From: Methanoplanus sp. FWC-SCC4
GTDB taxonomy: Archaea; Halobacteriota; Methanomicrobia; Methanomicrobiales; Methanomicrobiaceae
DNA length: 64,000 nucleotides
Reading direction: 5' to 3'
NCBI RefSeq assembly: GCF_032878975.1
Contig: NZ_CP043875.1
Location: 1,480,370-1,544,369, forward strand
Shown here: one piece after another, positions 2,272 to 49,454 of the stretch
Layout: every line of letters begins with the position of its first letter
How positions within the stretch are numbered: the stretch's first letter is position 1
Notes under the pieces: generated by a model
Told to the model about the DNA's origin: nothing
The model's input: only the letters and a program-made list of their open reading frames with translations
Databases searched by the model: none
Made by a program: the position numbers and the translations under genes

Positions 2272-3582
2272 TTAATCAGCATATATGTCCTTCAGATTTG
2301 ATACCCTCTCTTCAAGATCTGATCTTAAAACGACAACCGGTTCAACACTGTCTGCGTAAATTCTGCTGCCCCTGATTATTCCGTCAGCCTTTACAAAAAA
2401 TCCTTCAGGGAGACTAAAACTGCCCATAATAAGAAAACTGCCCCTCCCGGACTCAAGATAATATCCGTCACAAAGCCTGTTTATAAAACCTGTAAGTGAA
2501 ACAGATTCCCCATCCTTTGAAGAACCGGTTGCATAAATCAGGGAGTCATAACCTGAATGAATCTCAAATACATCTCCGGATTCATCATCGCCTCTGAAAG
2601 CATTACGCTTAACCACCCTGCCGGAATAAATCTCTGCGATATCTCCTTTGAACAGAGGACGAAGGGCATTATTTCCCCACAAAACAAAAGGACAACTGCA
2701 GGTGCCATCACTCATCAGTCCCTTTCGTCTCCAGGAGATATTCCCGTTTTTTGTAACAAAACTCTCAGGTTTGTCACATAATTCAATCTTCGTTCTGATG
2801 TTGCAAAAATCCAGATTGCAGGCATCATGAAGGGATATAAATGAGGATTCCACAACATCCCCTGACACCATCACAGATGTCTGAAGGGAGGATGAATATT
2901 CTTTGAGGCCGCATTTTGCCTTTTCCAAAAGACCGGAGACCTCAACAGTCATACCCGCAGAATATCCCTCAAAAAGTTTGGGATTCCAGCAATTTAAGAC
3001 AACACCGCCCATCCTGCTGACGCCTGATATCCTGCACCAAAACCCTTTCTCCCCGTCTTTTCTCCGGTATTCGGAAACTTCACCTATGTCAAGAATTTTT
3101 AGTATGACAGTCTGTTGGGAGAGGGTTTTCATTCCGTTTTCCCGGAGAGAAAGTTTGAGATCGGATTTCTGCATATCAACTGCAAATATCTGACTCCTGC
3201 TTTTTACCCTCCCGGCAATCTCAATCACATCACCAACTGAAATCTCATTGACGCATAATGCTTTTTCATCCCAGAAAACCAAAACAGCCTCTCCCGTATC
3301 ATCACCTACAAGAATGCGGGATACAAGACCGGGAGTATCATCAGACCTCTTAAATTCACGAGGCCCTGCGATGTCAATTACCTGTCCGAAAAATGAGTTA
3401 AGAGTCGGTTTTGAATTTAATTTTGATATTTTGGGATGGAGGCGGCCCGCCTCTGAAACGATTTCAAGAGATGCCCTGTTTTCAGATTCCTCGTCATCGC
3501 TCCCGCCGGTCAGATCATATACCGCCGCCTCAAATTCATCCCACGTAAAGAGATCATCCACGAGCGCGTAATAAGCTCTCAA
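2272..3582 (-). CDS. RPA-like single-stranded DNA-binding protein with repeated OB folds
   Basis: A 436-residue protein with three OB-fold-like modules, at about residues 60-130 (RILVGDDTGEAVLVFWDEKA is diagnostic), 155-230 and 255-330, resembling the RPA41/RPA-family proteins of Methanomicrobiales and other euryarchaea that coat single-stranded DNA in replication and repair. The conserved N-terminal segment (ALVDDLFTWDEFEAAVYD) also occurs in archaeal RPA. No C-terminal zinc finger is visible. The start is a TTG (3582) preceded by AAAGGAG 11 bases upstream; a GTG at 3561 is an alternative. It lies 24 bases after lysA, so it seems to be the last gene of a dapL-lysA-RPA operon, with radA next downstream. 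Confidence 0.85.
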   Translation of the reverse strand: MRAYYALVDDLFTWDEFEAAVYDLTGGSDDEESENRASLEIVSEAGRLHPKISKLNSKPTLNSFFGQVIDIAGPREFKRSDDTPGLVSRILVGDDTGEAVLVFWDEKALCVNEISVGDVIEIAGRVKSRSQIFAVDMQKSDLKLSLRENGMKTLSQQTVILKILDIGEVSEYRRKDGEKGFWCRISGVSRMGGVVLNCWNPKLFEGYSAGMTVEVSGLLEKAKCGLKEYSSSLQTSVMVSGDVVESSFISLHDACNLDFCNIRTKIELCDKPESFVTKNGNISWRRKGLMSDGTCSCPFVLWGNNALRPLFKGDIAEIYSGRVVKRNAFRGDDESGDVFEIHSGYDSLIYATGSSKDGESVSLTGFINRLCDGYYLESGRGSFLIMGSFSLPEGFFVKADGIIRGSRIYADSVEPVVVLRSDLEERVSNLKDIYAD

Positions 3583-3606
3583 TGCCTGACTTACTCCTTT
3601 TAATCC

Positions 3607-4902
3607 TTATTTTTCATGCCAGGGAAGTTTTTTCATTGTATTTACAATGTCAATTACAGTCTCGGCCCTGCGCATAACTGCTGACCTGTCTCCTGCAACC
3701 ATAACCTCAGGACAGCGGGGACGGCAGTTATACTGAGATGACATTGAATATCCGTATGCACCTGTGTCAAGAATGGCAAGAATGTCCCCGTCCTCAATCA
3801 TTGGCAGTTTCCTGTCGGCCGCAATAATGTCACCGGTTTCACAGATAGGCCCTGTTACAGTGTAATCAGTTTCTGCTTCCTTATCCGCCTTGTTTGCAAC
3901 GATTATCTCATGATATGAATCGTACATTGCGGGACGGAGGAGAAGGTTGAATCCGGCATCAACATTTACAAACTTCTTATGAGCGGTTTTGACAGAATTT
4001 ACATTTGTAAGAAGAACGGTTGTGTCTCCGACAAGATTTCTTCCGGGCTCAACCCAGAGCTGCGGTTTTATGCCGAGTTTCTGTATGCCTTGTAAAAATA
4101 CAGGCAGAACAGCATCTGCATATTCCTCAGGAGTCGGTGCAACCTCGGTCTCATGCCTGTAGGGAATGCCAAGACCTCCTCCGATGTCTATGAATGAAAG
4201 CCTGACACCCAGTGCCGTAATATCCCCTGCAACCTTTACCATGACCTCTGCAGCCTTTGCAAACGGTGCTACGTCAAGAATCTGTGAGCCGATATGGCAG
4301 TGCATTCCAACAGGAACAACATTCTCACATTCCATAGCCGCACGGTATGCATCTGTTATCTGGTCTGCAGGTATTCCGAATTTGCTTGTTGCAAGACCTG
4401 TTGCAATCTTCGGGTGTGTCGGGACATCTATTGCAGGATTAATCCTGAATGATACCTCAACAATTTTCCCTGCATCCCCTGCAATTTTGTTAAGCTGACG
4501 AAGTTCATCAAAAGAATCAAGAGATACTTTCACTCCCTTTTCAACGGCAAGCTTTAGATCCTCTTTTGTCTTTGAACTGCCGTTGAACAGAAGTTTTTCA
4601 GGTTCCATCCCGGCAAGAAGTGCAAGGTGAAGTTCTCCTGATGAAAATACATCTGCACCTGCTCCCAGTTCGGCAAAAACTTTCATGACTGCAAGATTGC
4701 CGTTTGCTTTGGCGGCATAAAGGAGCTGTACATCTTCATAGTGCTTCTTTAATGCGCTGTCATATCTCTGAAAGTTCTCTCTTAAACGGTCTTCATCAGT
4801 AACATATACAGGTGTACCATACTCCTGCGCCAGGACAGTGCAGTCATGTCTGCCGATATACAGATGTCCGTCTTTTACGGTAAGATGACCTGGAAGTTTC
4901 AT
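3607..4902 (-). CDS. lysA: diaminopimelate decarboxylase
   Basis: PLP-dependent fold-III decarboxylase that converts meso-diaminopimelate to lysine, the last step of lysine biosynthesis. The 431 residues match the family. The PLP-binding lysine is K65 in YAAKANGN; the glycine-rich phosphate loop is DIGGGLGIPY, the HCHIGSQI segment lies near residue 199, and the substrate-binding ETGDIIAADR and the C-terminal YGYSMSSQYN (active-site Tyr) are present. The ATG overlaps the stop codon of dapL by one base (TGATG), so the two are translationally coupled and encode consecutive parts of the diaminopimelate aminotransferase route. Confidence 0.96.
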   Translation of the reverse strand: MKLPGHLTVKDGHLYIGRHDCTVLAQEYGTPVYVTDEDRLRENFQRYDSALKKHYEDVQLLYAAKANGNLAVMKVFAELGAGADVFSSGELHLALLAGMEPEKLLFNGSSKTKEDLKLAVEKGVKVSLDSFDELRQLNKIAGDAGKIVEVSFRINPAIDVPTHPKIATGLATSKFGIPADQITDAYRAAMECENVVPVGMHCHIGSQILDVAPFAKAAEVMVKVAGDITALGVRLSFIDIGGGLGIPYRHETEVAPTPEEYADAVLPVFLQGIQKLGIKPQLWVEPGRNLVGDTTVLLTNVNSVKTAHKKFVNVDAGFNLLLRPAMYDSYHEIIVANKADKEAETDYTVTGPICETGDIIAADRKLPMIEDGDILAILDTGAYGYSMSSQYNCRPRCPEVMVAGDRSAVMRRAETVIDIVNTMKKLPWHEK

Positions 4903-6050
4903 CAGTACTCAAGCCCCCTCATACGCTCAAGAGCTTCCTCTATCCTCTCAACGCTGCGTGTTATTGCGAACCTGACATATCCTTCGCCATTGCTGCCAAA
5001 TCCTACTCCGGGAGTTACAACAATACCTGCTTCATTGAGCATCTTCTGAGCAAAGCTCATACAGTCATCAACCTTCATCCAAACGTAGAATGTTGCCTTT
5101 GGTGAATTTACCTCAAATCCGAGATCACGAAGGCCGGCTACAAGTACATCGCGCCTTTCCTGGTAAACCCTGCATGCATCCGATACGCATTCCTGTGATG
5201 ATGTAAGTGCGGTTATTCCGGCTCTCTGGATTGCATCAAAAGCTCCTGAGTCCACATTGGTTTTAACACGCCCGAGACCGGCTATGAACTTCTCTCCTCC
5301 GACTGCCATTCCAAGACGCCAGCCTGTCATATTGTATGTCTTTGAAAGGGAATGCATCTCCATACCAACCTCTTTTGCTCCGTCAGCCTCAAGGAAGGAA
5401 GGCGCTTTGTATCCGTCATAAGTTATCTCGGAGTAAGCATTGTCGTGTACAACAACAATTTCATTCTCCTTTGCAAACTCAACAACCTCTTCAAAAAATG
5501 ACAGGGGTGCAACTGCTGCCGTAGGATTGTTTGGATAACCAAAAAACATCAGTTTTGCCTTTTTCAAGACATCTGCAGGGATCTCGTCAAGTGCAGGCAG
5601 AAAGTCATTATCTTCGGTTAATGGAAGCTGATGGAGTTTACCTTCTGAAAACAGGGTTGATGTCTTATATACCGGATATCCGGGATCTGTTGCCAATACA
5701 TAATCACCCGGATTTACAAAAGCCTCAGGTACATGGGCAATACCCTCTTTTGATCCTATTAATGCAAGAACTTCTGTTTTTGGATTAAGATCCACATTGA
5801 ACCTTTTTTTGTACCACTCAGAAACAGCCTCGCGGTATTCAATCATTCCTGTGTAATCAGGATAATGATGTGTAGAAGGATCGCGGGCTGCATCACAGAG
5901 TGAATCCACAATATGCTTTGGAGTAGGGAGATCCGGATCTCCTACACCAAAGTCGATTACATCCACGCCTTCAGCCCTCTTTTGAGCCTTCAGGGCATCT
6001 ATCTGCGCAAACAAATATGGTGGAAGATTATCAAGACGTTTTGCATACAT
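4902..6050 (-). CDS. dapL: LL-diaminopimelate aminotransferase
   Basis: Class I/II PLP aminotransferase of 382 residues that makes LL-diaminopimelate directly from tetrahydrodipicolinate and glutamate. The PLP lysine lies in SLSKTYNMTGWRLG; other family marks are the N-terminal IDFGVGDPDLPTP, GYPNNPTAA and the C-terminal FVWMKV/VRFAIT segments. Its one-base overlap with lysA, whose product uses the epimerised form of its product, supports the DapL assignment over aspartate or alanine aminotransferases. It is the first gene of the operon; its promoter should lie in 6051-6160, where the minus strand has an AT-rich TATA-like stretch (near 6130-6145). Confidence 0.93.
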   Translation of the reverse strand: MYAKRLDNLPPYLFAQIDALKAQKRAEGVDVIDFGVGDPDLPTPKHIVDSLCDAARDPSTHHYPDYTGMIEYREAVSEWYKKRFNVDLNPKTEVLALIGSKEGIAHVPEAFVNPGDYVLATDPGYPVYKTSTLFSEGKLHQLPLTEDNDFLPALDEIPADVLKKAKLMFFGYPNNPTAAVAPLSFFEEVVEFAKENEIVVVHDNAYSEITYDGYKAPSFLEADGAKEVGMEMHSLSKTYNMTGWRLGMAVGGEKFIAGLGRVKTNVDSGAFDAIQRAGITALTSSQECVSDACRVYQERRDVLVAGLRDLGFEVNSPKATFYVWMKVDDCMSFAQKMLNEAGIVVTPGVGFGSNGEGYVRFAITRSVERIEEALERMRGLEY

Positions 6051-6100
6051 TTACCTTAATTTAGGAATTGATCTCTAATAATATCGCTCTTTGAATGCCT

Positions 6101-6112
6101 GCATGATCATGC
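6101..6112. repeat. 12-base palindrome in the dapL upstream region
   Basis: GCATGATCATGC is perfectly self-complementary and lies about 50 bases upstream of the dapL start, near where its promoter is expected. It could be an operator, but a 12-base palindrome may also occur by chance. Confidence 0.3.
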
Positions 6113-6299
6113 GGCAAAATGGTATCGAATATATTTTATAATTTCAGCCATCTATAACCATCCTAAAGAGTCAGGAAAATATCCGTGATCTTTTTATCCG
6201 GATTTTTTTACGAAAAAAACAAAATTACATCCAACTGATGAAAATCATATAATATTAAGTATTCATACGATAATTTCAGATAAAAAATTAGGAGTGTTA

Positions 6300-6596
6300 A
6301 TGAACCGTTGCATAAACAAACTCAGACCGGACATCATTGAAGAGGAAATAGCTCCTGAAGAAGCGGTTTCCTATATCAAAAAGAAGTCCCCGGAGGTTTA
6401 CAAGATGCCCGAAGGGTTTACCATCAAAGGCGTCACAATTCTCGGAGACCCTCCGCTTTTTGTCGGGTTGAAACCAAAGAAAAAGGAAATTGTTTTTTAT
6501 TTCAAGAAACCCTGCTTTGGGACATATCTGATGAAAATTGAAGGCAGTGAGGATGATTTTTCCAAAATAAGAAGCGAAGGAAAACTCATTGAATAA
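6300..6596 (+). CDS. small hypothetical protein
   Basis: A 98-residue protein that I do not recognise. The likely start is ATG 6300, because an AGGAG site at 6290-6294 sits 5 bases before it; a GTG at 6294 would add two residues but overlaps that site. The protein is mixed charged, with no membrane segment. It has an acidic N-terminal third (IIEEEIAPEEAVSYIKKK), a central beta-rich stretch (GFTIKGVTILGDPPLFVGLKP) and a KKKEIVFYFKKPCFGTYLMKIEG block containing one of two cysteines. The fdhD-like gene follows 78 bases later on the same strand, which may mean joint expression, but nothing links their functions. Confidence 0.75.
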   Translation: MNRCINKLRPDIIEEEIAPEEAVSYIKKKSPEVYKMPEGFTIKGVTILGDPPLFVGLKPKKKEIVFYFKKPCFGTYLMKIEGSEDDFSKIRSEGKLIE

Positions 6597-47054: not shown

Positions 47055-47765
47055 ATGGCGCCCAGAATATCAGTGGTTATCCCGACCTTTAATGAAGAAA
47101 AAAATATTACTCCCTGTCTGGAATCCCTCTCTAAACAGACAATTCCAAGGGATGAATATGAGCTTATTGTAGTTGACGGCAACTCAAAGGACAAAACACG
47201 TGAATATGCGGAAAAGATTGCAGACACCGTAATAATCCAGACCAGCAAAAAGGTTGGCGGAGCAAGAAATGATGGTGCGGCCCTTGCAAAGGCTGATATT
47301 ATCGCAACAACGGATGCGGACTGTATCATCCCTCCGGACTGGCTGGAGACAATTTTAAAGTCCTTTAAGGAAAATGAAGATATTGTCCAGCTTTACGGAA
47401 CGGTTTACCCTCTTGAACCAGGCATCAAATTCAAGTTTTATCTTGCACTTGCAAACACATTCTCAAGACTCGGGTATTATACCCACACTCTTTACTACAC
47501 CCTCGGGTGCAATACCGCATTTACAAAAGATGCATACCGAAACTTAGACGGATACAAGTGTATTGATGCAGGGGATGACCTTGAGATTGCACAGAGAATG
47601 AGAAAAATTGGAAAGGTAAAACTGAATACAAAGATGAAGGTTCAGTTTTCAATGCGAAGATATGTGCAGTTCGGGACTATTAAATCATTATACATCTGGC
47701 TCTATATCGTCTTAAAAGGCGGAGAAAGCGACAAGTTTTCTTACGCAGGTAAAAATTACAAATAA
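47055..47765 (+). CDS. family 2 glycosyltransferase
   Basis: A 236-residue GT-A fold transferase. The N-terminal ISVVIPTFNEEKNITPCLESL and the ELIVVDGNSKDKTREYA block bind the nucleotide sugar, KVGGARNDGAALAKADIIATTDADCI holds the DxD-like metal site (TDAD), and GDDLEIAQRMRKIGK resembles the (Q/R)xxRW-like acceptor region with ED-like GDDLE base. A weakly hydrophobic stretch appears at about residues 130-150, and the protein could be peripheral. The acceptor is unknown; the UGM-like FAD gene upstream suggests surface glycans. A TATA box precedes the gene. Confidence 0.9.
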   Translation: MAPRISVVIPTFNEEKNITPCLESLSKQTIPRDEYELIVVDGNSKDKTREYAEKIADTVIIQTSKKVGGARNDGAALAKADIIATTDADCIIPPDWLETILKSFKENEDIVQLYGTVYPLEPGIKFKFYLALANTFSRLGYYTHTLYYTLGCNTAFTKDAYRNLDGYKCIDAGDDLEIAQRMRKIGKVKLNTKMKVQFSMRRYVQFGTIKSLYIWLYIVLKGGESDKFSYAGKNYK

Positions 47766-47956: not shown

Positions 47957-48283
47957 TCATAATTTACTCTGAAGTTTCTCAATCTGTGCTTTTTGCTGCT
48001 TTATCTGACTCTCCAGTTCCTGAATCTTCTCCTGAAGCTGCTGCTGCTGCGTTTCTCTTGCATTGACCTGTTCAAGCTGCTGTTCAATCTGTTTCTGGTG
48101 CTGGAGCTGCTCCTGGAACTGCTTTTCAAACTGCTCCTGGTGCTGAATCTGTTTTTGGAATTGCTGCTCTACCTGCTGCTGGTGCATTTCAAACTGCTGT
48201 GCATGCTGCCGGTAATCCTGAAGCTGTTGGATCTGCTGCTGAAGCTGACCAACCTGCTGTTCAATCTGACGGCCTTCTACCAT
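47957..48283 (-). CDS. glutamine-rich coiled-coil repeat protein
   Basis: A 108-residue protein of which 43 residues are Gln. The centre contains 14-residue repeats: VEQQFQKQIQHQEQ, FEKQFQEQLQHQKQ and IEQQLEQVNARETQ. Hydrophobic residues fall at positions 1, 5 and 9 of each repeat, compatible with an amphipathic helix, and the C-terminal part (LQEKIQELESQIKQQKAQIEKLQSKL) looks like a regular heptad coiled coil. There are no cysteines or membrane helices. The start is certain: AGGAGGTGA lies 7 bases before ATG, the best ribosome site in the window, implying strong expression. I do not recognise the family; a filament or multimer-forming scaffold is a guess. The 3' end and flanks are AT-rich. 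Confidence 0.85.
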   Translation of the reverse strand: MVEGRQIEQQVGQLQQQIQQLQDYRQHAQQFEMHQQQVEQQFQKQIQHQEQFEKQFQEQLQHQKQIEQQLEQVNARETQQQQLQEKIQELESQIKQQKAQIEKLQSKL

Positions 48284-48487
48284 TTACATTTCACCTCCTT
48301 TTCTGATTTCGTCTCAATAACGACAGATAACATATTTAAGAAAGTGCCTTACCGGACCGATTATCACATCAGATGACCGCTATATGTTAAATATTTAGAA
48401 TAATTACAGATTCTCTGGTTTTTCGTCAGAACTATTAAAAAATGCTGATATTTAAAAAAATTTATTACTAAATCTATGCCCCATTCA

Positions 48488-49372
48488 CTATTCAAGGAGC
48501 TCATAACTGCTCATTACAACAGGGCCTTTGAGACTGTCAAGAACACGCTCGAGAAAAACTCCCTCTCTTTCAGGATTTTCACGACCAAATGATGCACGGA
48601 TTGCGAGGGTGGTAAACTGAACGGCCCTGTCAAGTGCTATTGGAAGGCTGTCTCCTTTAAGGAGACTTCCGACAACAACTGATGCAAAGGCATCTCCGGT
48701 GCCGGGGTAATGTGCAGGGATGTAGTCACATGAAACCTTCCACAGTTTCTCACTCCCTTTGTCATAGGCAAGGACGGATGTTCTCTTATCTGAACTTTCA
48801 TACGGGACACTTGTGACTATAACAACTCCGGGCCCCATATCGGCAAGCCTTAAAAGCCATTCTTTTACAGTCTCCTCATCTATTGAATCACTGTAAGGCT
48901 CATTTAACAAAAAAGCAGCCTCGGTTAAATTCGGAGTTATTACATCCGCACGGGATATAAAAGACCTCATCCTCAAAACCATATCGTCTGTTATCGGGCC
49001 GTAGGTTTTACCGTCATCACCCATTACGGGATCAATTACCACAAGAGGACTACCGTCCCTCTCTAAAAGAGAATCAATCAGCTCTGAAACAATATTCATC
49101 TGCTCGGAAGAACCCAGAAAACCACTGTAAACAGCATCAAAATCGATCCCGAGATTGATCCAGTGAGAAACACAGTCCTTCATAAAAGGTGTCAGATCAT
49201 TGAAACAGTAATCACTAAATCCTGTTGTGTGCGTTGACAAAACCGCTGTCGGCATGGGGCATGCCTGAACTTCCATAGCAGACAGTACAGGAATTACAAC
49301 AGTAAGGGATGCACGGCCAAAACCTGACAAATCATGAATCGCTGCAACTCTGGGTACCGGATTTCTGATCAA
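48488..49372 (-). CDS. pdxY: pyridoxamine kinase-like protein (ribokinase family)
   Basis: A 294-residue kinase of the PdxY/ThiD type which phosphorylates pyridoxal or pyridoxamine to restore PLP. The N-terminus AAIHDLSGFGRASLTVVIPVLSA is the substrate-side motif, and VVIDPVMGDDGKTYG and PAHYPGTGDAFASVVVG supply the conserved anion-hole and catalytic Asp (GTGDAF). TTG 49372 is preferred: AGGTGA lies 8 bases before it, while an in-frame GTG at 49384 overlaps that site. The chance of a related hydroxymethylpyrimidine kinase role is not excluded. It diverges from the DUF2148 gene. Confidence 0.85.
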   Translation of the reverse strand: MIRNPVPRVAAIHDLSGFGRASLTVVIPVLSAMEVQACPMPTAVLSTHTTGFSDYCFNDLTPFMKDCVSHWINLGIDFDAVYSGFLGSSEQMNIVSELIDSLLERDGSPLVVIDPVMGDDGKTYGPITDDMVLRMRSFISRADVITPNLTEAAFLLNEPYSDSIDEETVKEWLLRLADMGPGVVIVTSVPYESSDKRTSVLAYDKGSEKLWKVSCDYIPAHYPGTGDAFASVVVGSLLKGDSLPIALDRAVQFTTLAIRASFGRENPEREGVFLERVLDSLKGPVVMSSYELLE

Positions 49373-49454
49373 TTTATCAATCACCTGAAAAAGTTTTTAA
49401 TTTAATTCATTTTGATATTTTCATACGGGCATAATTTTAACTACCCGATTTGGA

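Follow-up and report, generated by a model that had tools for sequence, protein, structure and literature searches.

A glutamine-rich orphan open reading frame with a predicted coiled-coil product in a variable junction of a methanogen genome

In the window, the whole 64,000-nt stretch of Methanoplanus sp. FWC-SCC4 DNA that was analyzed, a short glutamine-rich open reading frame (ORF) stands alone between a kinase gene on the same strand and a convergent glycosyltransferase gene (Table 1). Counting confirms that 43 of its 108 residues are Gln, as a first-pass annotation of this DNA had stated, and the resulting fraction of 0.40 compares with a mean of 0.021 and a maximum of 0.073 in a sample of 422 other ORFs. 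This sample, taken from 20 stretches of 20 kb and from the window, consists of ORFs of at least 100 aa, with overlaps pruned longest first and several start codons allowed for each ORF; the Gln-rich ORF itself is absent from it because the ORF antisense to it is longer. Among the 108 residues there are also 1 Asn, 2 Gly, and 26 charged residues, the longest Gln run is four residues, and the sequence shows no evident signal peptide or membrane segment.

Table 1. Coordinates, in window numbering, of the Gln-rich ORF and the features around it.
Feature	Position	Strand	Basis
Gln-rich ORF, predicted coiled coil, 108 aa (43 Gln)	47957..48283	-	ORF exact
Three 14-residue (42-nt) units, residues 38-79; unit 3 degenerate	48047..48172	-	Repeat analysis
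Ribosome-binding site AGGAGGTGA, 7 nt upstream of ATG	48291..48299	-	
Candidate TATA-like motif CTTAAATA, -57 to -50 relative to start	48333..48340	-	
Upstream neighbor: Phos_pyr_kin kinase (PF08543), 204 bp off, edge of variable junction	48488..49384	-	
Convergent neighbor: family 2 glycosyltransferase (PF00535), opposite edge of variable junction	47055..47765	+	

The ATG is preceded, at a distance of 7 nt, by a 9-nt ribosome-site match (AGGAGGTGA). None of the sampled ORFs has a match longer than 8 nt, and a match of 8 nt is reached by 2/422; within the window, the best site among the other 56 ORFs is 7 nt long, which bears out the earlier description of this site as the best in the window. 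A two-codon ATG-TAA mini-ORF directly separates the ribosome site from the start codon (48284-48289, minus strand; ATGTAAATG). The TATA-like motif further upstream (CTTAAATA) is unremarkable as a promoter signal; in 70 control upstream regions, such motifs show no positional enrichment. The synonymous codon score per degenerate codon is 0.184 for the ORF, compared with a gene median of 0.099 and a 95th percentile of 0.167, and the antisense Leu-rich ORF (47993-48376) scores -0.040, which is below the 1st percentile. Much of the score is supplied by a preference for CAG, which accounts for 39 of the 43 Gln codons (2154/2750 in the sample). When Gln codons are left out, the score is 0.083, a value still normal for genes; leaving Leu out of the antisense ORF gives -0.104 (both with a stricter set of 311 ORFs). 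These scores favor the minus strand over its antisense, and the minus-strand ORF is therefore likely the coding strand. The 9-nt match and the codon fit support the original proposal that this is a protein gene whose ribosome site is exceptional; the ORF is probably translated. We infer that it is expressed, and the one ribosome site suggests that expression may be strong.

The hydrophobic residues of the protein recur with a peak period of 3.46 residues, the strength of which was equaled in 0/2000 shuffles, and the chain thus has the hydrophobic period of approximately 3.5 residues that is characteristic of coiled coils. In the N-terminal part, I7, V11, L14, I18, and L21 are spaced 4-3 in heptad fashion over residues 7-21, and in the C-terminal part (L83, I87, L90, I94, I101, L104, and L108), regular heptads appear again over residues 83-108 with the register shifted by one. 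The 4-4-6 spacing of the hydrophobic residues between these two ends had been considered unusual, a description that does not hold. The residues concerned (V38 F42 I46, F52 F56 L60, and I66 L70) fit the g, d, and a positions of alternate heptads in the N-terminal register, and the spacing is therefore a coiled-coil feature that continues this register rather than a separate fold. In this middle segment, every second core layer is occupied by Gln, His, or charged residues, and because hydrophobic and polar layers alternate in this way, loose packing would be expected in the middle of the rod. AlphaFold2 run without an alignment returns one helix from residue 2 to 107 with a mean pLDDT of 95, a single-sequence monomer model that is silent on partners and stoichiometry and belongs to a kind of sequence, low-complexity and rich in Gln/Glu, that is readily modeled as helix. 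Together, the 3.46-residue period and the monomer helix model make a coiled-coil oligomer the likely fold, in line with the oligomeric assembly predicted earlier; the filament-like form also proposed then is speculative. Beta-branched residues at a together with Leu at d favor parallel dimers, and both ends of the chain, with Ile/Val at a and Leu at d, suggest such a dimer. Since these ends (residues ~7-21 and 83-108) are mostly beta-branched at a with Leu at d, a parallel two-stranded coiled coil would be the most likely arrangement.

The repeat within the ORF can be seen in both protein and DNA. Tandem Repeats Finder reports a 42-bp tandem array of 2.6 copies with 77% matches, in which units 1 and 2 are identical at 30/42 bases; unit 3 shares just 19/42 bases with either of them and is therefore a weak copy. 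At the protein level, lag 14 yields 29 identities, which makes it the top lag jointly with lag 4 (29 each), and this count was equaled in 6/5000 shuffles in one run and 0/2000 in another. The 14-residue repeat noted in the first-pass annotation is thus present, although partly decayed. A 42-bp duplication would add exactly two heptads to the rod and keep the register, which explains why the repeat is 14 residues long.

With 43 Gln and 1 Asn per 108 residues, the protein has the Q/N-rich, low-complexity composition of prion-like sequences. A Gln content of 40% within a heptad context could mean that polar Gln layers leave the helix metastable, and that the coiled coil switches to aggregates or condensates in the manner of the Q/N-rich prion-like domains of yeast and animals. 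Precedent for this is provided by human MED15, in which coiled coils are reported to overlap Q-rich prion-like domains and both coiled-coil dimers and amyloid are formed (PMC7997880). However, prion-like behavior is at odds with the single Asn, the Gln runs of no more than four, and a chain that is confidently modeled as helix over its whole length. The high-confidence predicted helix and the charged residues (26/108) also make amyloid somewhat less likely as the ground state, and we regard such a switch as improbable.

The Gln-rich ORF is an orphan without detectable relatives. No homologues were found in 60 relatives, in 232 genomes of the order, or in a 392-genome sample of the phylum (E up to 0.1); the order and phylum searches gave only weak matches, with a best E of 0.002, and most of the matches listed lie inside longer open frames. 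Its own genome contains no paralogues at E up to 10, and no homologue was found in viral contigs, phages, plasmids, or GTDB contigs. An origin as a phage or plasmid gene likewise finds no relatives in viral, phage, and plasmid records, and the best E in PHROGs is 0.14. Searches of Pfam, NCBIfam, PHROGs, and PDB sequences returned just generic coil matches that are below cut-offs or have poor E-values, and no archaeal Gln-rich coiled-coil family was found in a literature search; the first-pass annotation, which knew of no described archaeal family with this repeat, agrees with the lack of a fitting family in these four resources. Some of the weak coil matches are to SMC/Rad50-type models, and the Gln-rich coils recovered with DNA patterns (see below) are mainly prefoldin beta, both of which could point to a diverged fragment of a prefoldin-like or SMC/Rad50-like coiled coil. 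Such a derivation is highly improbable. The ORF has no prefoldin match at E up to 1, as opposed to 7.5e-22 for the prefoldin-beta ORF of a relative, and the genome has a separate Gln-rich ORF that is prefoldin-beta-like (L210, assigned by resemblance), while the SMC/Rad50 matches are hundreds of bits below cut-offs, with the best model at 17.7 bits vs 300. At just 108 aa, below the profile cut-off and without an ATPase head, the ORF is not an SMC/Rad50-type ATPase.

Eight related genomes have a comparable junction at the kinase, and a Gln-rich ORF is present there in 0/8. The junction is nearly without space in three of these relatives (G022, G024, and G026); that of G013 contains an Imm5-like putative immunity gene (L003 842-1297, minus strand), that of G007 contains HTH and PepSY genes within the part read, and those of G006, G012, and G018 contain a 235-aa ORF and a short ORF, with a glycosyltransferase observed beyond this junction for G006 and G012. 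Because its content differs between relatives, the junction appears to be a slot where accessory genes come and go. The ORF could be young or non-functional: a CAG-rich expansion in a spacer, open by chance and by chance furnished with a ribosome site. Its orphan status, tandem repeats, low complexity, and position in a variable junction would all be consistent with this origin. Nevertheless, a well-spaced ribosome site of 9 nt and a 3.5-residue period maintained over 100 residues are hard to obtain via repeat drift, and we consider a chance origin of this kind unlikely.

DNA patterns for Gln-rich coils were used in three scans of the 232 genomes, the first of them with Gln-Gln-hydrophobic codons. 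The second scan matched in 83/232 genomes and the third in 79/232, and the loci opened were part of all matches: 80 in total, 20 from the first scan, 30 from the second via a Gln-content filter, and 30 from the third, in addition to 21 fetched stretches. The scans mostly returned prefoldin beta or runs out of frame with other genes (e.g., L110). A separate observation is a 1141-aa tubulin/CetZ-domain protein in G022 (L158 374-3799, minus strand; Pfam CetZ_C E 3.1e-43) with a long Gln/Asn-rich repeat linker. In G011, which belongs to another genus of the same family, a look-alike ORF of 111 aa and 33% Gln (L111:1384-1719, minus strand) follows a GGGAGGT ribosome site and adjoins a pseudouridine-synthase-like gene; it has a 3.51-residue period (equaled in 3/1000 shuffles), and lag 14 is its top identity lag (1/2000). 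It is also an orphan, matched in 1/232 genomes, and no such Gln-rich ORF is found in G005 next to the same gene, the protein of which is 92% identical. In two genomes of a different family within the order, G037 and G057, Gln-rich ORFs follow GGGGTGA-type sites among CsbD genes. Those of G037 (L214, G037:C9:68000-78825) are low-complexity ORFs of 26-53% Gln at 2884-3840, 4751-4942, and 5855-6394 (minus strand), each with a GGGGTGA-type site before it, and they are interleaved with four CsbD-like genes, one of which is below the Pfam cut-off. G057 has a similar Gln-rich pair (L215), including a Gln-rich ORF from the start at L215:5860.

These look-alikes raise the possibility that this order of methanogens has a recurring class of small, Gln-rich proteins that are strongly initiated, evolve quickly to the point of escaping homology search, and serve a common function, which might be protection against stress or osmotic change. 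The G011 ORF, with its Gln content, 14-residue repeats, and GGGAGGT site, and the Gln-rich ORFs beside CsbD-like stress genes in two genomes of another genus would fit into such a class. Local alignment of the Gln-rich protein with the G011 look-alike gives a score of 127, which full shuffles reach in 7/1000 cases and pattern-preserving shuffles in 80/1000, and because the alignment does not clearly exceed shuffles that keep the hydrophobic pattern, homology with the G011 ORF is not demonstrated. The CsbD-linked ORFs, for their part, are without hydrophobic heptads, and CsbD is matched in neither of the two genomes that carry the coiled-coil type. The G011 ORF resembles the Gln-rich ORF in size, Gln content, 14-residue repeats, strong ribosome site, and stand-alone orphan status, and differs from it in its locus, in containing Trp, and in having more Asn; their alignment reflects composition and heptad pattern only. 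CsbD itself occurs in 13/232 genomes, and the source genome (G000) and G011 are not among them, so a CsbD link for the Gln-rich ORF was set aside. The G011 and CsbD-linked ORFs are thus leads to a wider class, not one family, and a class with a shared role is doubtful. Also doubtful is a related proposition, namely that small Gln-rich proteins with strong initiation arise again and again in this methanogen order and evolve beyond recognition by homology, some of them coiled coils with 14-residue (two-heptad) repeats and others disordered and CsbD-linked, and that they serve as a class of helical or hydrophilic scaffolds or protectants.

The best reading of the Gln-rich ORF is that of an ORFan grown via CAG-rich repeat duplication. 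It is fairly probable that it represents a lineage-specific coding gene in a variable junction, translated into a helical rod that pairs through heptads. In the mechanism that we favor, the near-perfect ribosome site would drive translation of a single continuous and very hydrophilic alpha-helix, and this helix would pair through its heptads, most likely into a parallel two-stranded coiled coil of ~16 nm. As for the cellular role, our best guess, a tentative one drawn from sequence, is that the protein acts in the cytosol as a small spacer or scaffold built of identical chains. At present, this is one orphan gene and fairly ordinary. If it is expressed, it would cleanly exemplify how a new gene in an archaeon becomes a coiled coil by in-register repeat duplication, and if the look-alikes have a role in common, methanogens would contain a class of Gln-rich helical proteins that has stayed hidden from homology searches.

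Several known systems can be compared with the Gln-rich ORF. Hydrophilins are defined by a Gly content of more than 6% and high hydrophilicity, and with 2 Gly per 108 residues, the protein does not belong among them. The coiled-coil-rich cytoskeletal proteins of bacteria (crescentin, FilP, and Ccrp) are rod-like coiled coils without a catalytic domain. The Gln-rich ORF resembles them in this respect, although it is far shorter and has no family match. With prefoldin subunit beta (PF01920), it shares the character of a short archaeal protein with a Gln-rich coiled-coil helix; unlike prefoldin beta, it has no Pfam match and is modeled as one uninterrupted helix. In contrast to the Q-rich, coiled-coil prion-like domains of the MED15 type, it is a stand-alone archaeal protein of 108 aa that is nearly free of Asn, charged, and without an adjoining domain; what it would share with those domains (PMC7997880) is Gln-rich sequence laid out on heptads and an expected helical dimer.
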